Assembly: GCF_005930475.1 (NCBI RefSeq)
Contig: NZ_SJEW01000022.1
Location: 1-64,000 of the forward strand
Origin: Modestobacter altitudinis
Lineage (GTDB): Bacteria; Actinomycetota; Actinomycetes; Mycobacteriales; Geodermatophilaceae
Length of the DNA stretch: 64,000 nucleotides
Direction of reading: 5' to 3'
Shown: piece by piece, positions 10,734 to 59,962 of the stretch
Layout of the letters: every line of letters begins with the position of its first letter
Position numbering within the stretch: position 1 is the stretch's first letter
Program-made: the position numbers and the translations under genes
The notes under the pieces: generated by a model
Told to the model about the DNA's origin: nothing
The model's database searches: none
What the model saw: the letters and a program-made list of their open reading frames with translations, nothing else

Positions 10734-11159
10734 TCAGGCGTTCGTGTCCACGACGGCCAGTCCGTCCGCTCGCCATGCGGAGAGCAGTTCCTGGTCCCCG
10801 CTGGCCGCGACCAGTTCCTCGTCGGCGACGGACAGAGCAGCGGCGCAGTGGACGGCGTCGTACCCGCGGAGGCCGTGGCGGAGGGCCACTGCTGCGGCGG
10901 CTCGTAGCCGCAGCTCGTCCGCCTGCACGACAGCGATGTCACTCCAGAGATCGGCCAGCACGTGCGTCGCGGCTTCCAGCGCCGACTGCGAGAGGCGACC
11001 GGATCGCTCTGTCCGGGCCAGTGCCGCGCACGCCTCGACGTGCCCGAGCGCCGAGCAGAGCACCAGGTCCGCGCCGTCCCACAGGCGACGGCAGCGGAGC
11101 GAGGACGCCTCGGTGACCAGCAGGGGAACGAGCGCCGACGTGTCTAGATAGAGGATCAC
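10734..11159 (-). CDS. vapC: VapC-family PIN-domain ribonuclease toxin
   Basis: A 141-residue PIN domain. The acidic site is visible: LYLDTSALVPLL (first Asp, residue 6), HVEACAALART (Glu), GYDAVHCAAAL (Asp) and AASGDQELLSA (last Asp). Such toxins cleave specific RNAs when their antitoxin is degraded. The ATG overlaps the antitoxin stop by four bases (ATGA), so production is coupled and both genes share one promoter. The antitoxin is Phd-like rather than a classic VapB. Confidence 0.9.
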   Translation of the reverse strand: MILYLDTSALVPLLVTEASSLRCRRLWDGADLVLCSALGHVEACAALARTERSGRLSQSALEAATHVLADLWSDIAVVQADELRLRAAAAVALRHGLRGYDAVHCAAALSVADEELVAASGDQELLSAWRADGLAVVDTNA

Positions 11160-11413
11160 CGGCGGTCGGCGAGCACGGTCTCAGAGAGCGACACGTCAGC
11201 GACGACCGGGTCCGGTGCTGGGCGCTTGCGATGCGTCGGGGGCTGCACGATGCCCTCGGCGATCAGCTGCTCCAACGCGGTTGGCGCCTGGACGGGGACG
11301 ATCCGAGCCACCGGCGTGCCGTGATCCGTCACCGTGATCGTGGCGCCCTGACGCACGTCGGCGATGTGCTTGCTCAAGCCGTCGCGCAGCTCGCGGATGC
11401 CGATGCTCGTCAC
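11156..11413 (-). CDS. Phd/YefM-type antitoxin of the VapC pair
   Basis: An 85-residue protein with the Phd/YefM fold at the N-terminus (IGIRELRDGLSKHIADVRQG, then ITVTDHGTPVARIVPV), used for dimerisation and DNA binding. The C-terminal tail (EGIVQPPTHRKRPAPDP) is disordered and Pro-rich, the usual toxin-neutralising part. It is the first gene of the pair and overlaps vapC by four bases. A strong inverted repeat 11-43 bases upstream of its start is the expected operator, implying autorepression by the complex. Confidence 0.9.
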   Translation of the reverse strand: MTSIGIRELRDGLSKHIADVRQGATITVTDHGTPVARIVPVQAPTALEQLIAEGIVQPPTHRKRPAPDPVVADVSLSETVLADRR

Positions 11414-18706: not shown

Positions 18707-19804
18707 TCACCGGGCCACCGCGGGCGCCGGCTGGGCTGTCGCGGCGTCGGCGGCCATCCGGGCGGAGAGCACGGCCGCATCGGCGCCGACGAAACCGAGC
18801 AGCGCCGAGCCGCGGCAGGTCTGCCACGGCAGGCCGAGGAAGTACAGCCCGGGCACGTCGGTCACGCCGCCGTCATGCCGGACCTGCCCGTCGACGACGA
18901 CCCCGGGAACGTGCAGCCAGGAGTGGTCGGACCGGTAACCGGTCGCCCACACGACCGCATCGACCTCAGCGGACGTGCCGTCGGCGAACCGCGCGGTGCG
19001 GCCGGTGAAGCCGGTCAGCCGCGGTCGGAAGCCGATCCCGCATCGACGCAGCCGGGCAGTGCGGGTGCCGATCACCAGGTCGCCGCGTGCGCGCAGCCGG
19101 CGCCCGATGCGGCTCCCGGCCGGCACGGTGAAGAACCCAGCACGGCTCAGCCAGGAGAACAGGTCGCGGCCGGCGATCCGCTGAGGAAGCTCCAGCTGCG
19201 TCGAGCCGACCGCGACCGTCACCGAGCAGCTGGAAGCCAGCTCGGCCGCGATCTGCAGACCCGAGTTGGCCGCACCCACCACCAGCACCCGGGCACCGGC
19301 GGGCAGCTGGCCGGGGTTCCGGTACTCCGCGCTGTGCAGCTGGACGACGTCGGGCGCGACCCCGGCGGCGAGCGCGGGGATCCACGGGACCTGGAACGGC
19401 CCGGTGGCGACGACGACCTGCCGCGCCCGCAGCGTGCCGGTCGGCGTCTCCACGACGAACGTGCCGTCGTCGGCCCGGTGCAGCCGCCGGACGGGGGAGT
19501 CCAGCCGCGCCGGCGGGGCGAAGTGCCGGGCGTAGCCGGCCAGGTAGTCGGCGACGTCGTCCTTGGTCGGGTGGCTGTCGGCCGGCGCGGGGAACGGCAG
19601 CCCGGGCAGCCCGTCGTACTGCGCCGGGCTGAACAGCCGCAGCGAGTCCCAGCGGGTGCGCCACGAGTGCCCGATCTCTGGTGCGGCGTCCAGCAGCAGG
19701 AAGTCCGCGTCGCGGCGGGCGAGGTGGTGGCCGAGCGCGAGGCCGGCCTGGCCGGCGCCGATCACGGCCACGTCGAGCACGTCGGTGGGCAGGGTGCTGG
19801 TCAT
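18707..19804 (-). CDS. Flavin-containing monooxygenase / CzcO-like FAD oxidoreductase
   Basis: 365 residues, with an FAD dinucleotide motif at the N-terminus (VAVIGAGQAGLALG, about 13-26), an aromatic cap region (WRTRWDSLRLFSPAQYDGLP) and a second Rossmann motif for NADPH (VLVVGAANSGLQIAAEL near 172). A late conserved VVWATGYRSDHSWL matches the ATG(Y/F) motif of this family. It lacks the Baeyer-Villiger FxGxxxHxxxWP fingerprint, so an N- or S-oxygenase or simple oxidoreductase is likelier. The substrate is unknown. A 25-base site shared with neighbouring exporter and metal genes lies 54 bases upstream, suggesting control by the adjacent LuxR-type regulator. Confidence 0.85.
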   Translation of the reverse strand: MTSTLPTDVLDVAVIGAGQAGLALGHHLARRDADFLLLDAAPEIGHSWRTRWDSLRLFSPAQYDGLPGLPFPAPADSHPTKDDVADYLAGYARHFAPPARLDSPVRRLHRADDGTFVVETPTGTLRARQVVVATGPFQVPWIPALAAGVAPDVVQLHSAEYRNPGQLPAGARVLVVGAANSGLQIAAELASSCSVTVAVGSTQLELPQRIAGRDLFSWLSRAGFFTVPAGSRIGRRLRARGDLVIGTRTARLRRCGIGFRPRLTGFTGRTARFADGTSAEVDAVVWATGYRSDHSWLHVPGVVVDGQVRHDGGVTDVPGLYFLGLPWQTCRGSALLGFVGADAAVLSARMAADAATAQPAPAVAR

Positions 19805-19858
19805 CGGAGCTCCTCCATCGCGTCTGGACCGCCCCGACGCTAGGAACGGACCGCCGGC

Positions 19859-19883
19859 CTCACGCCGGGAGAACCGCCGGGTT
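19859..19883 (-). promoter_or_regulatory. Shared regulatory site, copy 1 (before the monooxygenase)
   Basis: Read on the minus strand, AACCCGGCGGTTCTCCCGG then CGTGAG. Its first 19 bases are identical to the site at 24199 before the metallochaperone. It ends 54 bases before the ATG at 19804. It contains a CCCGG direct repeat with 7 bases between, a plausible site for a NarL-type helix-turn-helix dimer or for activation near a -35. Confidence 0.65.
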
Positions 19884-19885
19884 CC

Positions 19886-22645
19886 CTACACCTCCAGCGC
19901 CAGCGCGGTGAGCTCGGCGCGGGAGGTGACGCCGAGCTTGCTGAACACGTTGCGGAGGTGGAAGTCGACCGTCCGCGGGGACACGAACAGCCGCGCGGCG
20001 ACGTCCCGGTTGGACAGCCCCTGCCGGACCAGCGCGGCGACCTGGCGTTCCTGCGCGGTCAGGTCGGTCGCCGTGCTCACGTCGCGGCGGCGCGCGGTCT
20101 CCCCGGACGCGCGCAGTTCCTGCGCCGCGCGCTCCGCCCACGAGGCGGCGCCCAGCTCCTCGAACAGCGCCAGCGCCGCCCGCAGGTGGGCGCGGGCGTC
20201 GACGCGGCGGCGGGCGCGCCGCAGGTGCTCCCCGTACGCCAGCTCGGTGCGGGCCCGGTCGGGCAGCCGCAGCGAGTCCGCGTGCGCGGCGAGCGCCCGC
20301 TGGAAGTGCACCTCGGCGCCGTCGGCGAGCAGGGCACGCCCGTGCTCGACGACCGCGGTCGCCGCCGGCGTGCCCGTTCCCGCGGCGTGTTCGGCCAGCT
20401 CGTCCACCCAGGTGCGGGCGAGGTCGGCACGTCCTGCGCGGACGGCGGTCTCGATGCGGTCGACCGCCGCGGCCCGGCGCAGCCCGGGCTCGCTGATCTG
20501 CGCCAGGTGGTGCAGCGCGGTCGCCGGCTGCGCGGCGGCGCCCAGCGCCCGGGCCCAGTGGGCGAGGTCGATGACGAGGCCGTCGCTGACCCCGAGCGGG
20601 TGCGCCTCCCGGATCGCCGTCACCTCGGCGAGGTGACCGTCGGCGTCCTCCCCGCGCAGCGCGGCCAGCACGGCGAGCAGGGCGTGGGGCAGCGCGCTCA
20701 GCCCGGGGTGGCCGGTGGCGGCGGTCAGCGGCAGCGCCTCCTCGGCCGCCGCCGCGGCCTTCGACCAGGCCCCGACGGCGAGCTGCACCTGCGCTCCGCG
20801 GGTGAGCGCGTGCTCGACCATGTTCAGCGCACCGGCGGCGCGGGCCGCGGTGAGCTGGTGCTCGTGCAGCCGCAGCGCTCGCTCGTCGTCGCCGAGGAAC
20901 ACCGCGGCGATGGCCAGGTTGGGCTGCAGCACGTGGTCGTCGAGCGGGTCGGCGTCGGTGAGGGCGAAGCCGGCGCGGAAGCACTCCGCCATCGCCGCCC
21001 AGTCGCGGGAGGCGGCGGCGATGAACCCACGCCGCAGGGCGGCGGCGGCCCGCACCCGCGGCGGCGCGTCCGGTGCCGGGGGAGCGACCAGCACCGACGG
21101 GTCGACGGCGCGGGGGGAGCGGGCACCGAAGGCGACCAGCGACGCGGCGAGCATCGCCAGCTGCTGCGCCATGGCCTCGTCCACCTCGGCGGCGACCTGG
21201 ACGGCCTGCAGGACGAAGTCGTACCCCTCGTCGAGGGTGCGGGTGTTCCAGGCGATCTGGCCCTGCAGCGTCAGCAGCTGCGCCCGCACCAGCGGGTCGG
21301 TCACCGTGGCCCCAGCGGTGGTGGCCAGCGCCGCCGCCTGCGACGGGTGCGCGCCCAGCCAGGCCGAGGACGCGGCCCGGTGCAGCCGCCGGCCGCGGGC
21401 CTCGCCGCCGGTCGTCAGCTCCGCGGCGCGGGACCAGGCAGCGGCCGCCGCCTCGTGCCCACCGCGGGCGGCGGCCCGCTCGGCCACGGCGTCGAGCGCG
21501 GCGACGACGTCGTCGTCGGGCCGGTCGGCAGCCGCGGCCAGGTGCCAGGCGCGCCGGTCGGGGTCGCCGGCGAGCACCTCGGCCAGCGCCCGGTGCGCGG
21601 TGCGGCGCTGCGCGCTGGTCGCCGCGCGGTAGACCGCCGAGCGCACGAGCGGGTGGTACAGCGACACCACGTCGCCGTCGACGCGCAGCAGCCCGGACCG
21701 CTCGGCGACGTCGAGGGCGTCGTCGCCGGCGCCGAGGCGTTCGGCGGCGTCCCGGACGACGGTCAGCCGCGCGGTGTCGTCGGTGGCGGCGACGAGCAGG
21801 AACCGCTGCGCGGGCTCGTCCAGGCGCCGGTGCCGGTCGAGGAACCCGCGCTCCACCCCGCCGGTCAGCGGGAGGGGGGCCGGCAGCGGCGCCCGCCCGG
21901 CCAGCTGCTCCCCGGTGAGCACCCGGGCCAGCTCGACCAGCGCCAGCGGGTTGCCGCCGGTGCCGGCCACGAGCTGGTCGCGCACCCCCGGGTCGATCCC
22001 GCCGCCGGCGCGGGCGGCCAGCAGCGTGTCGGCGTCCGCACCGGTGACGCCGCCGAGGACGACGGCCGGCAGGTCGGCTGCGTCGAAGCGGCGTGCGTCG
22101 CCGTCGCGGGCGGCGAACAGCAGCGCCACCCGCTCGTCCTGCAGCCGGCGGGCGACGAACAGCAGCGCCGCGGACGAGGCGTCGTCGAGCCAGTGCGCGT
22201 CGTCGACGACGACCAGCAGCGGCGCCTCGTCGGCGGCGTCGGCGAGCAGGCTCAGCGTGCCCAGGAAGGCCAGGAACCGCTCGCCCTCACCGGTGGCCTC
22301 GCCGAGCGCGGCGCTCAGCGCCGCCCGCTGCGGCGCGGGCAGCCCGTCGAGGCGGGAGCGCAGCGGCCACAGCAGCCGCTGCAGCGCGGCGAAGGCCAGC
22401 GGTGACTCGGACTCCACCCCCGAGGTGCGCAGCACCCGCATGCCGGAGGCGGCCGCGACGGCGTCGCTGAGCAGCGTCGACTTGCCGGCCCCGGCCACCC
22501 CGCGGACGACCAGCGCCCCGCCCCTGCCCGAGCGTGCGGCGTCCAGCAGGGCGGTGATCGTCGCGCGCTCCCGGTCCCGCAGCACGGCCGGAACGGTACC
22601 GGGCGCGGCGGCCGGGTCGGCCGGGCCAGGCCCTGGCGAAAGCAC
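19886..22645 (-). CDS. LAL-type LuxR family ATPase transcriptional regulator
   Basis: 919 residues. The N-terminus is an AAA/STAND ATPase (Walker A GVAGAGKST near 50, Walker B LLVVVDDAHWLDD near 145), the middle is a long all-helical TPR-like region, and the C-terminus is a LuxR/NarL helix-turn-helix (LTAQERQVAALVRQGLSNRD, then TVDFHLRNVFSKLGV). This is the architecture of MalT/LAL regulators, which bind an inducer, multimerise on ATP and activate promoters. It sits in the middle of the genes carrying the shared upstream site and is the natural candidate to bind it. The annotated start is a GTG at 22645; a GTG at 22585 is also possible, since 22645 overlaps a possible site for the divergent exporter. 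Confidence 0.88.
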   Translation of the reverse strand: MLSPGPGPADPAAAPGTVPAVLRDRERATITALLDAARSGRGGALVVRGVAGAGKSTLLSDAVAAASGMRVLRTSGVESESPLAFAALQRLLWPLRSRLDGLPAPQRAALSAALGEATGEGERFLAFLGTLSLLADAADEAPLLVVVDDAHWLDDASSAALLFVARRLQDERVALLFAARDGDARRFDAADLPAVVLGGVTGADADTLLAARAGGGIDPGVRDQLVAGTGGNPLALVELARVLTGEQLAGRAPLPAPLPLTGGVERGFLDRHRRLDEPAQRFLLVAATDDTARLTVVRDAAERLGAGDDALDVAERSGLLRVDGDVVSLYHPLVRSAVYRAATSAQRRTAHRALAEVLAGDPDRRAWHLAAAADRPDDDVVAALDAVAERAAARGGHEAAAAAWSRAAELTTGGEARGRRLHRAASSAWLGAHPSQAAALATTAGATVTDPLVRAQLLTLQGQIAWNTRTLDEGYDFVLQAVQVAAEVDEAMAQQLAMLAASLVAFGARSPRAVDPSVLVAPPAPDAPPRVRAAAALRRGFIAAASRDWAAMAECFRAGFALTDADPLDDHVLQPNLAIAAVFLGDDERALRLHEHQLTAARAAGALNMVEHALTRGAQVQLAVGAWSKAAAAAEEALPLTAATGHPGLSALPHALLAVLAALRGEDADGHLAEVTAIREAHPLGVSDGLVIDLAHWARALGAAAQPATALHHLAQISEPGLRRAAAVDRIETAVRAGRADLARTWVDELAEHAAGTGTPAATAVVEHGRALLADGAEVHFQRALAAHADSLRLPDRARTELAYGEHLRRARRRVDARAHLRAALALFEELGAASWAERAAQELRASGETARRRDVSTATDLTAQERQVAALVRQGLSNRDVAARLFVSPRTVDFHLRNVFSKLGVTSRAELTALALEV

Positions 22646-22654
22646 CGGTGTGAG
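22632..22654 (+). promoter_or_regulatory. Shared regulatory site, weak copy 2 (before the DHA2 exporter)
   Basis: CCTGGCG, a divergent middle, then CCGGTGTGAG. It matches the copy at 19859-19883 at 15 of 23 positions, mostly in the two outer blocks, and ends 62 bases before the ATG at 22717. The match alone is weak; the position relative to the start is what supports it. Confidence 0.4.
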
Positions 22655-22716
22655 CGAGCGGGACGGCGGCGAGCGTGGCAGTCGACCGCACCGCCCGCTG
22701 CTCTCGAGGAGGAGCC

Positions 22717-24195
22717 ATGTCAGCCCACGCCTCCGCTGCCCACCCGCACCTGCACGATCCGGCTCCGGACGAGCCGCGCCGGCCCTGGACGGTCTTCGCC
22801 CTGATGATCGCCGCCCAGGTGATGGTCGTCCTGGACGTCTCCGTGGTGAACGTGGCGCTGCCGTCGATCGGCCGCGGCCTGGACCTGTCGGCCGCGGACT
22901 ACCAGTGGACGATCTCCGCCTACGTGCTGCTCTCCGGCGGGCTGCTGCTGCTCGGCGGACGCATCGCCGACCTGCTGAACCGCCGCGGCGCCTTCCTCGC
23001 CGGTGTCGGCCTGTTCACCGCCGCCTCGCTGGCCAGCGCGCTCGCCCAGGGCCCGGAGATGCTGATCGCCGCGCGGGCCGCGCAGGGCGCCGGCGCCGCG
23101 CTGCTCACCCCCGCGGCGCTGTCGATCATCATGACGGTCTACGCCGGTCGGCAGCGGCAGACCGCGCTCGCCGTCTGGGGGACCGTCGGCAGCCTCGGCA
23201 TCGCCGCCGGCGTGCTCTTCGGCGGCGCGCTGACCAGCGCGCTCGGCTGGCGCTCGGTGTTCTTCATCAACCTGCCCATCGGGATCGCCGTCATGGTGGG
23301 CAGCTTCCGGACCGTCGACCGCGGCACCGCGCAGGCCGGTGCGCTGCGCCGGCTCGACGTCCCTGGCGCGCTGACCCTGGTGGCCGGGCTGCTGGCGCTC
23401 GTGCTGGGCATCGAGGCCACCCGCTCGGCCGGCTGGACCGCGCCCCGCACCTGGATCCCGCTGGCCGCCGCTGCCGTGCTGCTGACGGTGTTCGCCCGGC
23501 TGGAGCGCCGCGCCGCCGACCCGCTGGTCCCGCCGGCGACCTGGCGGATCCGGTCGCTGGTCTCGGCCTCCGCGGTGATGGCCGGCATCACCGGCGTCGT
23601 CGTCGGTGCGGTCTTCCTCAGCTCGCTGTACCTGCAGACCGTCCTCGGCGCCTCGCCGGTGGTCGCGGGCCTGGCGTTCCTGCCGCTGGCCGGCGCGCTG
23701 ACGCTCGCGGCCGCCGCCGCGTCGACGGCGATCGGGCACCTCGGTGCTCGCCCGCTCATCCTGGGCGGCCTGGTCGTCCTGGCCGGGGGTGTGCTGCTGC
23801 TGGCCGCCTCCGCCGGCGGCACCTCCTACGCCGCCGACGTGCTGCCCGGCTTCCTGCTGGTCGGTGCCGGGGTCGGGCCGGTGTTCGTGGCCGTCGCGGT
23901 GGCCGCGATGGGCGACGTCCCCGCCGAGAGCTCCGGGCTGGCGTCCGGGCTGATGATGACCGGCCACGAGATCGGCGCCGCCCTGGGCGTCGCCGGGCTC
24001 ACCGCCGTCGCCGGGACCTTGACCACCTCGGCCGGGCTCGTCGACGGCTACGGCCGCGCCTTCGCCGTCACCGCCGGCGTCGCGGCCGCGCTGTTCCTGC
24101 TGACCCTCGCCGCGGTGCCCGGCGGGAAGCCCGCTCCCGGGACGGCGGCCGGCCACGGGCACGGCGTCCACGGCCACGGCCCCCACGGCCACTGA
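22717..24195 (+). CDS. DHA2 (EmrB/QacA) family major facilitator drug exporter
   Basis: 492 residues with about 14 hydrophobic segments. The first membrane helix carries the DHA2 hallmark MVVLDVSVVNVALPSIG, followed by LLLLGGRIADLLNRRGAFL (motif A) and AAQGAGAALLTPAALSI (motif C region). The product is a proton-driven exporter of hydrophobic compounds in the inner membrane. ATG at 22717 is chosen because GAGGAGGAG lies just upstream. The C-terminus ends in a His-rich tail (GHGHGVHGHGPHGH), unusual for a drug exporter; together with the neighbouring HMA protein and P-ATPase it hints at metal sensing or transport. It is divergent from the LAL regulator. Confidence 0.9.
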   Translation: MSAHASAAHPHLHDPAPDEPRRPWTVFALMIAAQVMVVLDVSVVNVALPSIGRGLDLSAADYQWTISAYVLLSGGLLLLGGRIADLLNRRGAFLAGVGLFTAASLASALAQGPEMLIAARAAQGAGAALLTPAALSIIMTVYAGRQRQTALAVWGTVGSLGIAAGVLFGGALTSALGWRSVFFINLPIGIAVMVGSFRTVDRGTAQAGALRRLDVPGALTLVAGLLALVLGIEATRSAGWTAPRTWIPLAAAAVLLTVFARLERRAADPLVPPATWRIRSLVSASAVMAGITGVVVGAVFLSSLYLQTVLGASPVVAGLAFLPLAGALTLAAAAASTAIGHLGARPLILGGLVVLAGGVLLLAASAGGTSYAADVLPGFLLVGAGVGPVFVAVAVAAMGDVPAESSGLASGLMMTGHEIGAALGVAGLTAVAGTLTTSAGLVDGYGRAFAVTAGVAAALFLLTLAAVPGGKPAPGTAAGHGHGVHGHGPHGH

Positions 24196-24198
24196 ACG

Positions 24199-24221
24199 AA
24201 CCCGGCGGTTCTCCCGGTGAG
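24199..24221 (+). promoter_or_regulatory. Shared regulatory site, copy 3 (before the HMA metallochaperone)
   Basis: AACCCGGCGGTTCTCCCGGT then GAG, starting four bases after the exporter stop and ending 52 bases before the ATG at 24274. Its first 19 bases are identical to the copy before the monooxygenase. Homology continues a little further (GAGACGCCCC here, GAGATGCCCC in the copy at 26906). Confidence 0.65.
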
Positions 24222-24273
24222 ACGCCCCTGCCCCCACACCGACGCTCGTCCCCACAACGACCGAGGAGTTCCC

Positions 24274-24507
24274 ATGCTCGCCAGCACGCCGCGCACCTTC
24301 ATCGGCTCGACCACCTTCACCGTCGCCGGCATGACCTGCGAGCACTGCCGGCGTGCGGTGACCGAGGAGATCGGCGCCGTGGCCGGCGTCGCGGCGGTCG
24401 CCGTCGACCTGGCCACCGGCACGGTCACCGTCACCGCCACCTGCCCGGTCGACCGCGCGTACATCGCCGCCGCCGTCGACGAGGCCGGCTACGCCCTCGT
24501 CCCCTGA
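24274..24507 (+). CDS. Heavy-metal-associated (HMA) domain copper chaperone
   Basis: 77 residues forming a single HMA ferredoxin-like domain. The metal-binding loop is GMTCEHC (about residues 17-23), then VTEEIGAVAGVAAVAVDLATG and a C-terminal VDEAGYAL. CopZ-type chaperones hand Cu(I) to P-type ATPases, and one lies about 3 kb downstream. ATG at 24274 follows GAGGAGTTCCC, the same leader as the small membrane protein gene at 26995. It starts its own transcription unit behind the shared site and is followed after 76 bases by the MMPL gene. Confidence 0.9.
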   Translation: MLASTPRTFIGSTTFTVAGMTCEHCRRAVTEEIGAVAGVAAVAVDLATGTVTVTATCPVDRAYIAAAVDEAGYALVP

Positions 24508-24583
24508 TCGGGTTCTCTCCTCGGCCCGGCGCCGGCGGGCTCTCCACTGCCCCGGCGATCCCCACACAGACAGGAGCACGATC

Positions 24584-26815
24584 GTGGACGCATCCGCCAA
24601 CCTCGCCGGCCGCATGGGCCGGTGGAGCGCTCGACACCGCAGGACCGCCGTCTTCGGCTGGCTCGCCTTCGTCGTCTTGGCGATCGCGCTCGGCAGCCTC
24701 CTGCCACGCGGCGAGCTGACCGCCGCGGAGCAGGACGTCGGACCGGTCCGGCAGGCGCAGGAGATCCTCGACGCCCACGGCTGGCAGCGGCCGGCGGAGG
24801 AGATGGTCCTGGTCCAGCGCGATGGCAGCACCTCAGCCGACGCCGTCACGGCTGCGATCAGCGACCTGGCCGGCACGCTGCGCCGCACGCCGGACGTCGG
24901 GCAGGTGACCAGCCCGCTGGACGGCGCACCACTGACCTCGGCCGACGGCCGCTCGGCGCTGGTGACCTTCGACATCGCCGGTGACCCCGCCGACGCCGAG
25001 GCGACGATCGGCCCCATCGCCGATGCTGTCGCTGCCGTGGCCGCACGCCACCCGGACGTCCGGGTCGACGAGTTCGGCGACACCAGCGCGACCGTCGCCC
25101 TCGACCGCGCGCTGTCCGAGGACTTCCAGCGGGCCGAGTACCTGGCGATCCCGATCACCCTCGCCGTCCTGCTGCTGACCTTCGGCGCGCTCGTCGCCGC
25201 CCTGCTGCCGCTGGTGTTCGCGCTGACCGCGTTCGTCGGGGCGCTGGGGCTGCTCACCTACGTCAGCCAGATCTGGCACGTCGACGGCACCGCCCAGACG
25301 GTCATGCTGCTCATCGGCCTGGCCGTCGGGGTGGACTACTCGCTCTTCTACCTCAAACGGGAGCGCGAGGAGCGGGCCCGCGGCGCCGGCGCCGCCGATG
25401 CCCTCGACATCGCAGCGGCCACCTCCGGCCGCTCGGTGCTGATCTCCGGCCTGACCGTCGTGGTCGCCATGGCCGGGGTGTTCCTCACCGGCATGCCGGT
25501 CTTCACCGGCATCGGCGTGGCCACCATCCTGGTCGTCGCGTGCTCGGTGCTCGGCTCGCTGACCGTGCTGCCGGCGCTGATGAGCTGGCTCGGCGACCGT
25601 GTCGAGAAGGGCCGCATCCCGCTGCTGCACCGCCGGACCACAGCCGGCCCCGGCCGGTTCTGGACGGCGGTCCTCGGCGCGGTGCTGCGCAGGCCGCTGG
25701 TCGCGGCGGTGGTCGCGGGCGGGGCGCTGGTGGCGCTGGCCGTCCCCGCCTCCGGGCTGCAGCTGCGCGACGAGGGCATCACCGACCTGCCCCAGGACCT
25801 GCCGGTCATCCAGACGTACCACCGCATCGCGGAGGCGTTCCCCGGTGGCTCGTCCCCGGCCCGCGTGGTGATCGAGGCCGACGACGTCACCGCCCCGGGG
25901 ATCCAGGCGGCGATCGGCGAGCTGCGCACCCGTGCCCTCGGGTCCGGCCGGATGAACGAGCCGGTCGACGTGCAGACCAGCCCGGACGGCGAGGTGGCGA
26001 TCGTCTCGGTGCCGTTGGCCGGCGACGGGGAGGACCGGGCGTCGGTCGACGCGCTGCACGCCCTCGAGGGCATCGTCGACGACACCGTCGGCTCGACCGA
26101 CGGCGTCACCGCCGTGGTCACCGGCAGCACCGCCGGCTCGGTCGCCTTCCGCGACCAGCTCGCCGAGCGGACCCCGTGGGTGTTCGCGTTCGTGCTGGTG
26201 CTCGCCTTCGCACTGCTGCTGGTGTCGTTCCGCTCGATCGTGGTGGCGACGACGGCGATCCTGCTGAACCTGCTGTCGGTGGCGGCCGCCTACGGCACGC
26301 TGGTGCTGGTCTTCCAGCACGGGTTCGGCGCCTCACTGATCGGGGTGCAGTCGACCGGCGCGATCGTGAACTGGGTGCCGCTGTTCCTGTTCGTCATCCT
26401 GTTCGGGCTGTCGATGGACTACCACGTCTTCATCCTCAGCCGGATCCGCGAGGGCCACGACCGCGGCCTGCCCACCCGCCGGGCCGTCACCGAGGGCATC
26501 ACCGCCTCGGCCGGGGTCGTCTCCAGCGCCGCGATCATCATGGTGTTCGTCTTCGCCACCTTCGTGACGCTGTCGACGACCAACATGAAGCAGGTCGGGC
26601 TGGGGCTCGCGGTGGCGGTGCTGCTCGACGCCACCGTCGTCCGCGCGCTGCTGCTGCCCGCGGTGATGCAGCTGCTCGGTGACCGCAACTGGTACCTGCC
26701 GCGTTGGCTGACCTGGCTGCCGGCCGTCCGCCACGAGCCCCCGGCGGCCGCCGGCCCGATCCCGGCACCGCGACCGGCTCCCGACGCCGACGAGGAGCTC
26801 ACCTCCGTCGGCTGA
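24584..26815 (+). CDS. MMPL family RND-type transporter
   Basis: 743 residues, with a cytoplasmic Arg-rich start followed by a membrane helix (VFGWLAFVVLAIALGSLL). Two extracytoplasmic domains are each followed by a block of about five helices, the duplicated layout of MMPL/YdfJ exporters. GLAVGVDYSLFYLKRERE and FGLSMDYHVFILSRIREG are the paired family motifs, with Asp-Tyr residues of the proton relay. GTG at 24584 was chosen for CAGGAG seven bases upstream. Substrates are usually lipids or hydrophobic compounds. Its place between an HMA chaperone and a copper-type ATPase is notable but does not prove a metal role. Confidence 0.9.
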   Translation: MDASANLAGRMGRWSARHRRTAVFGWLAFVVLAIALGSLLPRGELTAAEQDVGPVRQAQEILDAHGWQRPAEEMVLVQRDGSTSADAVTAAISDLAGTLRRTPDVGQVTSPLDGAPLTSADGRSALVTFDIAGDPADAEATIGPIADAVAAVAARHPDVRVDEFGDTSATVALDRALSEDFQRAEYLAIPITLAVLLLTFGALVAALLPLVFALTAFVGALGLLTYVSQIWHVDGTAQTVMLLIGLAVGVDYSLFYLKREREERARGAGAADALDIAAATSGRSVLISGLTVVVAMAGVFLTGMPVFTGIGVATILVVACSVLGSLTVLPALMSWLGDRVEKGRIPLLHRRTTAGPGRFWTAVLGAVLRRPLVAAVVAGGALVALAVPASGLQLRDEGITDLPQDLPVIQTYHRIAEAFPGGSSPARVVIEADDVTAPGIQAAIGELRTRALGSGRMNEPVDVQTSPDGEVAIVSVPLAGDGEDRASVDALHALEGIVDDTVGSTDGVTAVVTGSTAGSVAFRDQLAERTPWVFAFVLVLAFALLLVSFRSIVVATTAILLNLLSVAAAYGTLVLVFQHGFGASLIGVQSTGAIVNWVPLFLFVILFGLSMDYHVFILSRIREGHDRGLPTRRAVTEGITASAGVVSSAAIIMVFVFATFVTLSTTNMKQVGLGLAVAVLLDATVVRALLLPAVMQLLGDRNWYLPRWLTWLPAVRHEPPAAAGPIPAPRPAPDADEELTSVG

Positions 26816-26834
26816 CACCTCCTCCCTGCCCATC

Positions 26835-26870
26835 CGGCGGTGGCCGCTGCGCGCGCAGCGGCCACCGCCG
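26835..26870. terminator. Hairpin terminator after the MMPL gene
   Basis: A perfect 36-base palindrome, with arms CGGCGGTGGCCGCTGCGC and its complement, starts 20 bases after the MMPL stop. There is no T-tract, as is common in high-GC actinobacteria. It would separate the exporter unit from the next promoter, whose shared site begins at 26906. Confidence 0.65.
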
Positions 26871-26905
26871 CTGCACGTCCCGACCCCGGCGACGGACCCG
26901 CGCAC

Positions 26906-26928
26906 ATCCCGGCGGTTTCCCCGGTGAG
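26906..26928 (+). promoter_or_regulatory. Shared regulatory site, copy 4 (before the small membrane protein)
   Basis: ATCCCGGCGGTTTCCCCGGT then GAG, ending 66 bases before the ATG at 26995. It differs from the copy at 24199 by only a few bases, keeps the CCCGG-N7-CCCGG spacing and lies just after the terminator palindrome, consistent with a new promoter. Confidence 0.65.
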
Positions 26929-26994
26929 ATGCCCCGCTGGCGACGCCGACGCTTCCTCCCGACCGCACCACCCACACCTCGTCGAGGAGTTCCC

Positions 26995-27438
26995 ATGCCG
27001 ACCGGCACCGTTCCTCCCTCTTCCATCGAGTCACCCGCGCAGGCTCCGCACCGCCCGAGCGCCCGGCGGTTCGCCCGGCACTTCGTCGAGATGGTCGTGG
27101 CGATGGCCGTCGGCATGGTGGCGCTGCACCCGCTGTGGACCGTCACCCTCGACGCCGTCGGCGCCGGCTGGCTGATGGAGGACCCGTACTCCGGCGCGCT
27201 GATCATGGCGACGGACATGACGGTCGCGATGTCCGCGTGGATGAAGGTCCGCGGCCACCGGTGGCGGCCCATCGCGGAGATGGCCGCGGCGATGTACCTG
27301 CCCTTCCTGGTGCTGTTCGTGCCGCTGGCCCTCGGGCTGATCGGCGAGGGCGCGCTGATGCTCTGGGGCCACGTCCTGATGCTCCCGGCGATGGCCGCGG
27401 CGATGCTGCTGCGCCCGCACGAGTACGCCCACTGCTGA
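26995..27438 (+). CDS. Small polytopic membrane protein of the metal cluster
   Basis: 147 residues with about four membrane helices: FVEMVVAMAVGMVALHPL, ALIMATDMTVAMSAWM, MAAAMYLPFLVLFVPLALGL and LMLWGHVLMLPAMAAAML. Met and His residues recur along the helices (METs near both membrane faces, WGHVLM), which could bind Cu(I). Similar proteins have been labelled FliP in actinobacteria, but no flagellar genes are here and that name seems wrong. ATG at 26995 follows GAGGAGTTCCC. The P-type ATPase follows after 132 bases, so a role in copper handling is inferred from context. Confidence 0.7.
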   Translation: MPTGTVPPSSIESPAQAPHRPSARRFARHFVEMVVAMAVGMVALHPLWTVTLDAVGAGWLMEDPYSGALIMATDMTVAMSAWMKVRGHRWRPIAEMAAAMYLPFLVLFVPLALGLIGEGALMLWGHVLMLPAMAAAMLLRPHEYAHC

Positions 27439-27491
27439 CCGCCCAGCCGACCGGTGGTGGGGCCCTTGGTGCTCCCGCCGCCGGTCGCGGA

Positions 27492-27514
27492 CCTGGCGGT
27501 CTGCCCGGTCCGAG
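27492..27514 (+). promoter_or_regulatory. Shared regulatory site, weak copy 5 (before the P-type ATPase)
   Basis: CCTGGCGGTCTGCCCGGTCC then GAG, ending 56 bases before the ATG at 27571. It matches the copy at 19859-19883 at 16 of 23 positions, including both outer blocks, and its distance to the start falls in the same 52-66 range as the other copies. Confidence 0.4.
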
Positions 27515-27570
27515 CCCGGTGGCCGCCCCTGACGATCAGCTCCAGCACCTCGTCCGACCAGGAGATCCCG

Positions 27571-30801
<3,231 letters not shown>

Positions 30802-59330: not shown

Positions 59331-59567
59331 ATGTCTGTCTCCATGACGATCCGCGACGTGCCCGACGAGACGCGGGACGAGCTCGCTGCCCGAGCCGCCC
59401 GCGCGGGCCAGTCGCTGCAGGAGTACGTCCGCGCCCAGTTGACCGCGCTGGCGCGCCGGCCGAGCCCTGACGACCTGTGGGCCCGCGTGCAGCAACGCGT
59501 CGAGGCGACGGGGTCCAGGCTGTCTGCTGACGCCATCCTCGAGGACCGGGACGCCGACCGGTCGTGA
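59331..59567 (+). CDS. FitA-like ribbon-helix-helix antitoxin
   Basis: 78 residues. The N-terminus is a ribbon-helix-helix of the FitA/Arc type (VSMTIRDVPDETRDELAARA, RAGQSLQEYVRAQLTAL), which dimerises on DNA. The C-terminal tail (DDLWARVQQRVEATGSRL) would wrap the PIN toxin. ATG at 59331 matches the predicted transcription start. It overlaps the toxin gene by four bases (GTGA). Confidence 0.9.
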   Translation: MSVSMTIRDVPDETRDELAARAARAGQSLQEYVRAQLTALARRPSPDDLWARVQQRVEATGSRLSADAILEDRDADRS

Positions 59568-59962
59568 CCATCGTGGTCGATTCTTCGGCGATGGTTGCGG
59601 CCTTGATCGACGGAGGAGTGGACGGCGCGTGGGCGCGCGCGGGCCTGGCCAGCGATGACCTCGTGGCACCGGAACACCTCTACGTCGAGGTGTCGAACGT
59701 GCTGCGGCGTGCCGTGGTGTCCGGCAGGGTGGCGCGTGAGGTGGCCGCCCTGGCGCACCAGGACCTCGTCCGTGCGCCGGTGACGGCCTTCCCCTTCGAA
59801 CCGCTGGCCGCCCGTGTCTGGGAGTTGCACCCTTCGGTCACCGCCTACGACGGCGCGTTCGTCGCTCTCGCCGAGGTGCTGGACGCGCCGCTGTGGACGC
59901 TCGATCGGAAGCTCGCGGCGTCGTCCGGCCCGCGATGTGCCTTCCGTCTTCCGGAACGTTGA
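59564..59962 (+). CDS. FitB/VapC-like PIN-domain toxin
   Basis: 132 residues. The PIN acidic residues are visible: IVVDSSAMVAALI (Asp5), YVEVSNVLRRAVV (Glu), TAYDGAFVALAE (Asp) and LWTLDRKLAAS (Asp). It is a predicted Mg-dependent ribonuclease held inactive by the upstream antitoxin. GTG at 59564 overlaps the antitoxin stop. It is convergent with the epoxide hydrolase gene, 14 bases apart, with no clear terminator between. Confidence 0.9.
   Translation: MTIVVDSSAMVAALIDGGVDGAWARAGLASDDLVAPEHLYVEVSNVLRRAVVSGRVAREVAALAHQDLVRAPVTAFPFEPLAARVWELHPSVTAYDGAFVALAEVLDAPLWTLDRKLAASSGPRCAFRLPER

Follow-up and report, generated by a model that had tools for sequence, protein, structure and literature searches.

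Predicted class II operators of a MalT-like LAL regulator in a copper-efflux gene cluster of Modestobacter altitudinis

LAL regulators are numerous in actinobacteria and few of their operators have been described; in the portions of the literature open to our search, the only consensus for an actinobacterial LAL is that of MalT (ACSP50_3915) from Actinoplanes sp. SE50/110. According to the available sections of that study (PMC7567727), this MalT-like LAL is encoded within the region that it activates in a maltose-dependent manner, and its operator, TCATCC-5nt-GGATGA, is a palindrome over the -35 region that ends 34.4 +/- 1.0 nucleotides before the mapped start sites and recurs in related species; metal-efflux targets are not named in these sections. 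MalT of E. coli is presented, in the part of the text at hand (PMC4381067), as a STAND ATPase with a helical-repeat sensor region and a C-terminal DNA-binding domain, and its boxes are quoted in the Actinoplanes study as GGGGA(T/G)GAGG (PMC7567727). A third LAL, SCO6993 of Streptomyces coelicolor, footprints on short palindromes, its own promoter included, and acts as a repressor of antibiotic regulators: its binding to palindromes reduces expression of actII-ORF4 and of redD; its authors were unable to predict a consensus site (available part of PMC9628970). Here we describe a 64,000-nucleotide stretch of Modestobacter altitudinis (contig NZ_SJEW01000022.1, positions 1 to 64,000, hereafter the window), in which a shared sequence stands five times in a gene cluster around a LAL gene. 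We consider it very likely that the cluster's own LAL, a MalT-like STAND protein, governs a local, activator-dependent regulon of class II in which the five sites serve as operators.

In this cluster, a flavin monooxygenase gene and the LAL gene lie on the reverse strand, followed on the forward strand by genes for a DHA2 exporter, a CopZ-like HMA protein, an MMPL transporter, a small membrane protein and CopA. A first-pass annotation, made from the letters of the window, had reported five copies of a sequence with a short variable middle, before the monooxygenase, DHA2, HMA, small membrane protein and P-ATPase genes, each ending 52-66 nucleotides upstream of a start codon, three of them strong and two weaker. 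We recovered all five at these distances, at 19859-19884 (-), 22629-22654 (+), 24198-24223 (+), 26905-26930 (+) and 27489-27514 (+). What was described as the variable middle is the A/T-rich central part of a dyad of 16 bp. The shared element consists of this dyad, CYGGYGRWWYYNCCGG, followed by YNNGA and, further on, by a -10 of the form NANNNT. In aligned promoters of related clusters, arms CYGGYG and NCCGG flank the A/T-rich centre, and the YNNGA 3' of the dyad occupies the position expected of a -35; within the 'GTGAG' of the first description GA alone is near-invariant, and this is where the -35 lies. The DHA2 dyad is nearer to a palindrome in several orthologues, and is a perfect one, CCGGCGAATTCGCCGG, in locus L040.

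Sites were scored with two weight matrices. The first was built from 37 curated sites, the five window sites included, and was used to scan further loci; its rows were selected with a preference for sites whose CCGG ends are intact, and the invariance of the CCGG columns is therefore partly built in. The second rests on 60 sites, all of them from genera other than that of the window, which were collected with the 37-site matrix. On this second matrix the strong copies score 35.7, 35.2 and 33.2 bits, against 23.3 and 20.9 bits for the weaker ones. The first matrix extends six nucleotides past the dyad and leaves the -10 outside, so that the -10 spacing is an independent test of the geometry. 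From 169 sites of at least 20 bits, 114 non-redundant sites were retained (less than about 85% alike over 70 nucleotides). The A of a NANNNT -10, together with its T, stands 22-25 nucleotides after the last CCGG in 108 of the 114, the spacing being 23 nucleotides in 44% and 24 nucleotides in 51% of the 114 sites; the remaining four-nucleotide bins reported hold 0-10 sites each. Assuming that transcription starts 6-8 nucleotides past the -10, the dyad would be centred at about -42.5, with its 3' end 34-36 nucleotides from the start sites. With starts so placed, the promoters have the class II layout, an operator at a fixed spacing beside the -35 and centred at about -42.

The five window sites are the five best places in the 64 kb on both strands (20.9-35.7 bits on the second matrix, the next place reaching 9.4). 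No place of at least 16 bits turned up in 3 Mb of Markov background, one strand. Applied to all 5,175,439 bases of the genome, the full promoter pattern with at most three mismatches finds the five window sites and one place on contig C83 (the window being contig C76); the reversed-pattern control finds one match in each of two genome runs. The C83 place is without the T of the -10. The five copies are far beyond chance, and chance recurrence in GC-rich DNA is rejected as their explanation. The random genome-wide scatter that the first-pass annotation had named as one outcome that would speak against it is absent, and the regulon of this genome appears to be a local one. Loose patterns are uninformative at the window's 72.6% GC: with two mismatches allowed, CCYGGCGGNNNNCCCGGNGNG matched 691 + 657 places (control, 314 + 345), and CYGGYGRNNNNNCCGGYNNGA, which is without the A/T core, gave 34 places against 34. 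The matrix and the full promoter pattern were therefore used instead. An RNA leader was also rejected, since the dyad lies upstream of the -10 and is thus not transcribed from its own promoter. A weak copy apparent by eye near 24526, ahead of the MMPL gene, was discarded as well: no site of at least 18 bits precedes this gene in either of two loci.

Is the cluster's own LAL the protein that reads the dyad? The protein has the domains expected of such a regulator. Its N-terminal part matches the AAA_16-type ATPase domain (PF13191, 8.7e-20), with Walker A and B motifs GVAGAGKST and LLVVVDDAHW, whose key residues are invariant in 18 aligned LALs. A C-terminal GerE/LuxR helix-turn-helix (PF00196, 3.4e-17, residues 862-916) matches the DNA-binding domains of NarL, GerE and DevR. 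Between them, the predicted model (pLDDT 84.8) shows helices throughout about 330-846, as in a helical-repeat sensor region. A Foldseek search with this model gave as best match the STAND-TPR protein 6mfv (9e-10), and also the maltose-system regulation complex 8bob (2.5e-5), all with low TM-scores (0.14-0.27). The architecture is that of E. coli MalT; the LAL does not pass the NCBIfam MalT model (NF003420), scoring 35.2 bits against a cutoff of 537. Carriage of the LAL on plasmids was rejected, since no match to it was found among 72,556 plasmid records at E 1e-100.

Co-occurrence of regulator and site was counted in 112 genomes of the window's family, the eight best LAL candidates being scored in each. 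The LAL is found at E 1e-180 in 27 of them. The exact site occurs in 16 of these 27, against 5 of the 85 others, where it is a single site each with a mostly GC-rich centre; altogether the exact-site search of the family genomes gave 41 places, against one in the control. By itself this co-occurrence is weak evidence, because the genes and the regulator travel together. Sorting by recognition helix is more informative. We fetched 80 named loci through LAL alignment and scored them with the second matrix. A site of at least 20 bits is present in 30 of the 32 loci with a [VI][DE]FHLR helix, and the two misses, L166 and L167, have their upstream side cut off by contig ends. None of the 32 loci with other helices, which are also those of more distant LALs, reaches 20 bits, and one has 16 (Fisher 6e-16 for 30/32 vs 0/32, the loci being related to each other). 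Among nine VAFHLR loci, two reach 20 bits and six reach 16; the single VEYHLSN locus shows no site with this matrix, and loci without a readable helix or LAL have a site in one case out of six.

The arms of the dyad change together with the helix. This was seen in a search that named no arm base and required only arm complementarity, the GA and the -10. Near DEF-helix LALs, 45 of 53 unique matches are of the CYGGnG type; near VAFHLR LALs, 14 of 16 are of the CYGGnC type (CCGGCC...G.CCGG-like); near VEYHLSN LALs, three of four are CCCGTGGTTCCACGGA. The changes are symmetric within the dyad, at positions 5/10 and 2/13, and the variable helix residues are those that we take to face the DNA in NarL. 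The VAFHLR and VEYHLSN clades are each nested, with SH-aLRT 100 by a quick tree method, within the larger DEF-helix LAL clade. A DYHLRN-helix LAL (L107) sits with three dyads ending in CCGA.

Loss of the site beside another regulator points the same way. G009 and G101, two genomes without the LAL, share the window's long CopA (71% and 70%) and have it, with an HMA gene, beside a 1095-residue regulator of the BTAD, SARP type, according to a domain search on the G009 copy only; no site was found at either place (loci L257:7356-14788 and L258:5887-13327), and one 14.6-bit place lies about 7 kb off in L257. We regard this arrangement as an apparent regulator swap. More generally, none of 30 loci of CopA homologues, from 51 genomes chosen among the 85 without the LAL, reaches 16 bits. 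The first-pass annotation had proposed the LAL as the binder; cross-genus conservation, the association with helix type, the joint change of arms and helix and the loss of the site beside another regulator all support this proposal, and the LAL is very probably the protein that binds the dyad.

Some related LALs deserve mention on their own account. LALs with the EYHLSN helix (L108, L109, L169, L170) have CCCGTGGTTCCACGGA before a divergent gene of 298-302 codons, which in L109 encodes an ABC transporter ATPase and is followed by an ABC-2 permease; these LALs and sites may form a second, related regulon. VAFHLR-helix LALs (L173-L178, L181, L182) belong to Nocardioidaceae, Intrasporangiaceae and one Streptomyces, and their CCGGCC-type dyads often lie upstream of DHA2-like exporters. 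Several family genomes (loci L040, L042, L044, L045, L102) hold two adjoining LALs, about 76% and 60% identical to the window LAL; pairs with both members complete have identical or almost identical recognition helices.

The site is retained in related promoters of different genera. Among 23 family loci, that of the window included, a site of at least 18 bits lies upstream of the DHA2 gene in 14 of 15 cases, of the HMA gene in 19 of 23, of CopA in 17 of 20 and of the monooxygenase in 9 of 18. Titles of site-bearing records include Geodermatophilus, Blastococcus, Modestobacter, Nocardioides and Intrasporangium, and further Sphaerisporangium, Actinomycetospora, Georgenia and Cellulomonas. Several loci carry, between LAL and monooxygenase, a gene of 136-162 codons with a site upstream (the one tested encodes a DUF6010 membrane protein), and in relatives the site also precedes a molybdopterin oxidoreductase resembling sulfite dehydrogenases (L098_12); a similar protein, L113_7 in genome G056, sits far from the LAL. 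Of the 11 loci in which the small membrane protein gene lacks its own site, 10 have its start within 50 nucleotides of the HMA gene, suggesting that the additional site in the window arrived with the MMPL insertion between these two genes.

Other explanations of the shared sequence have to be weighed against this evidence. A regulator encoded elsewhere, another LuxR-type protein or a CsoR-type copper repressor, might bind the dyad, the LAL being a mere neighbour; the genome does hold many LAL-like candidates (63 at first look, of which 8 were scored) as well as three CsoR-family genes. We find this improbable, because the sites track the presence and helix type of the LAL, the arms vary with the helix of the neighbouring LAL, and the same copper genes have no site where the LAL is missing. 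No CsoR-family regulator accompanies the cluster, the three PF02583 genes all being on contigs other than the window's, and the dyad is presumably unlike a CsoR operator. A promoter specific to one sigma factor, for instance of the ECF type, would also combine a shared -35 region with a -10 at fixed spacing, as is the case here; yet what is conserved lies upstream of the -35 and forms a dyad of 16 bp, its two arms varying symmetrically with a LAL helix, and NANNNT is the -10 of the housekeeping sigma factor, which makes this alternative highly improbable.

We give least credence to the idea that the copies are recent duplicates of a single promoter without special regulation. The HMA and small membrane protein leaders of the window are alike beyond the dyad, as a duplication at the MMPL insertion would leave them, whereas promoters of different genes diverge outside the dyad and -10, and both elements persist in the 114 non-redundant sites, under titles of at least ten genera. 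More serious is the question whether the LAL, once bound, activates. Some LALs repress, as does SCO6993 according to the available part of its description (PMC9628970), and the window LAL might repress or switch between the two modes. This seems about as improbable as a binder from elsewhere: the dyad lies upstream of the -35 and not over the -10 or the start, and its strictly fixed spacing beside a degenerate -35 is the activator-dependent layout, like that of the activator MalT in the accessible Actinoplanes data (PMC7567727). We therefore retain the class II operators of the cluster's own LAL as the preferred explanation.

Several observations count against this explanation or restrict it. 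On the first matrix, the C83 place comes close to the weakest window site (21.0 against 22.4 bits). In the family loci, half of the monooxygenase genes (9 of 18) have no directly preceding site, only 2 of 13 small membrane protein genes have a site to themselves, and CopA is without a site in the sister species Modestobacter excelsi (L039), the nearest named relative found, whose LAL is 92% identical to that of the window. The variant helices form nested clades and therefore represent two events, not many. In the base-agnostic search, other or odd types account for 8 of the 53 matches near DEF-helix LALs and for 8 in the 35 loci with other LALs, one of the latter (L191, helix not read) being of the EYSN type; 19 LAL-less loci gave 5 matches, 3 of the DEF type. 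The loci of these three (L111, L112, L113) were fetched for holding a site, and their genomes (G028, G056) carry the LAL elsewhere. Finally, no invariant Cys or Met was found across the LALs, and almost every invariant His of theirs recurs in four LALs from other loci; direct copper binding is thus not supported, and the LAL is unlikely to be a direct copper sensor.

We propose that the ATPase module of the LAL opens in response to a signal, one that probably has to do with copper or with toxic compounds that are exported; the LAL would then multimerise and read the dyad with its C-terminal GerE helix-turn-helix. The metals and drugs named as inducers in the first-pass annotation are a guess at this signal. 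Bound at about -42.5, beside a poor -35, it would recruit RNA polymerase to an otherwise weak NANNNT promoter. The flavin monooxygenase, the DHA2 exporter, the CopZ-like chaperone, the Met-rich membrane protein and CopA would be switched on jointly, and the MMPL transporter would be expressed by read-through from the HMA promoter. The LAL gene itself probably uses its own promoter on the opposite strand of the intergenic region that it shares with the DHA2 gene. The 899-residue start (GTG at 22585) is favoured by orthologue lengths and by the TACCGT seven nucleotides before it, and among 20 non-redundant loci whose site is divergent, 14 have a TANNNT ending 6-8 nucleotides ahead of the LAL start as called; the LAL message is probably leaderless. 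Autoregulation with the same geometry was rejected: a LAL-side -10 at 23-24 nucleotides from the dyad is found in none of 24 divergent sites, and the role proposed for the dyad at the target genes therefore does not extend to the LAL gene.

How does this compare with the systems described? Like Actinoplanes MalT, the window LAL is encoded within the region that it would activate, its palindromic operator adjoins the -35 at the same distance from the predicted starts (34-36 nucleotides, against 34.4 +/- 1.0), and the motif recurs in relatives; the operator sequence itself is different, as is the proposed set of targets (accessible sections of PMC7567727). Like SCO6993 in the available text (PMC9628970), it is predicted to bind short palindromes; its probable role as an activator is different. 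The first-pass annotation knew of no described regulon with this site. Against the literature searched, the operator is new, as are its helix-linked variation and the copper-efflux targets; the kind of system has a precedent, and the LAL/STAND architecture and the promoter geometry are known from Actinoplanes MalT (in the sections of PMC7567727 at hand). The features concerned are collected in Table 1.

Table 1. Predicted operators, promoter elements and genes of the cluster, in positions of the window
Feature	Position	Strand	Basis
ArsO-like flavin monooxygenase, 365 residues, predicted regulon member	18707..19804	-	ArsO family 221 bits, below the 425-bit cutoff
Monooxygenase promoter -10 TAGCGT	19837..19842	-	0 mismatches to full promoter pattern
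Monooxygenase promoter dyad CCGGCGGTTCTCCCGG, predicted operator	19865..19880	-	34.3 bits (first matrix), 35.7 (second)
LAL / STAND LuxR-type regulator, 899 residues, recognition helix TVDFHLRNVF	19886..22585	-	GTG start 22585 preferred over 22645
LAL gene -10 TACCGT, 7 nucleotides before GTG, probably leaderless	22593..22598	-	sequence
DHA2 promoter dyad CTGGCGAAAGCACCGG, predicted operator, divergent LAL/DHA2 intergenic region	22633..22648	+	22.4 bits (first), 20.9 (second)
DHA2 promoter -10 GAGCGT	22671..22676	+	sequence, full promoter pattern match
DHA2/EmrB-type MFS exporter, His-rich C-terminus	22717..24195	+	EmrB model 197 bits, below the 230-bit cutoff
HMA promoter dyad CCGGCGGTTCTCCCGG, predicted operator	24202..24217	+	35.5 bits (first), 35.2 (second)
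HMA promoter -10 GACGCT	24241..24246	+	0 mismatches to full promoter pattern
CopZ-like HMA protein, 77 residues, MTCEHC	24274..24507	+	PF00403; CopZ models below cutoff
MMPL/RND-type transporter, without own site	24584..26815	+	read-through from HMA promoter probable
Small membrane protein promoter dyad CCGGCGGTTTCCCCGG, predicted operator	26909..26924	+	35.5 bits (first), 33.2 (second)
Small membrane protein promoter -10 GACGCT	26948..26953	+	sequence, full promoter pattern match
Small Met-rich four-helix membrane protein	26995..27438	+	outside Pfam and NCBIfam families
CopA promoter dyad CTGGCGGTCTGCCCGG, predicted operator	27493..27508	+	23.4 bits (first), 23.3 (second)
CopA promoter -10 GACGAT	27531..27536	+	sequence, full promoter pattern match
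Cu(I) P1B-type ATPase CopA, N-terminal HMA domain, about 300-residue C-terminal extension	27571..30801	+	TIGR01511 573 bits, cutoff 397

The copper link would come from the targets. CopA passes the copper-translocating ATPase model by its TIGR01511 score and carries CPC, YN and MSS, which we take to be copper-ATPase motifs; the extension C-terminal to its ATPase core (about 29800-30801) is common to orthologues. The CopZ-like HMA protein points the same way, its scores on the CopZ models notwithstanding, as does the Met ladder of the small membrane protein. Across 22 homologues of the latter, M33, M37, M41, M71, M75, M79, M83, M96, M100, M129 and M133 are invariant, and so are H29, H88 and H126; its predicted model is good, with four helices, and no solved structural relative was found for it (best E 1.5). 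It appears to represent a family of Cu(I) membrane proteins that has no name yet. The presence of the DHA2 exporter and of the ArsO-like enzyme suggests a broader toxic-compound response. Bacterial copZ-copA copper-efflux operons are under CsoR, CueR, CopY or two-component systems. The cluster shares their copper chaperone and P1B-1 ATPase as targets; its regulator is different, a LAL and probably an activator. Elsewhere in the window, two small gene pairs resemble toxin-antitoxin modules by eye (59331-59962 and 10734-11413).

It is possible, and we put this tentatively at somewhat less than an even chance, that a LAL clade with a DNA code of its own took over copper-efflux genes in several actinobacterial families. 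In this code, D/E versus A at one position of the GerE recognition helix would go with dyad positions 5/10 and EYHLSN with positions 2/13, and copper or a toxicant would be sensed indirectly, by a NOD-like switch without metal ligands of its own. With its genome-confined regulon, its promoter layout and its natural pairs of helix and operator, the clade would make LAL specificity testable through changes of one or two residues. It also provides a proposed copper-efflux regulator from a class for which we found no link to copper in the open-licence literature searched (partly by whole-word matching, a weaker negative), and it adds an unclassified family of Met-rich membrane proteins to the predicted copper regulon. 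If this view is right, the LAL clade would constitute a new class of regulators for bacterial copper homeostasis.

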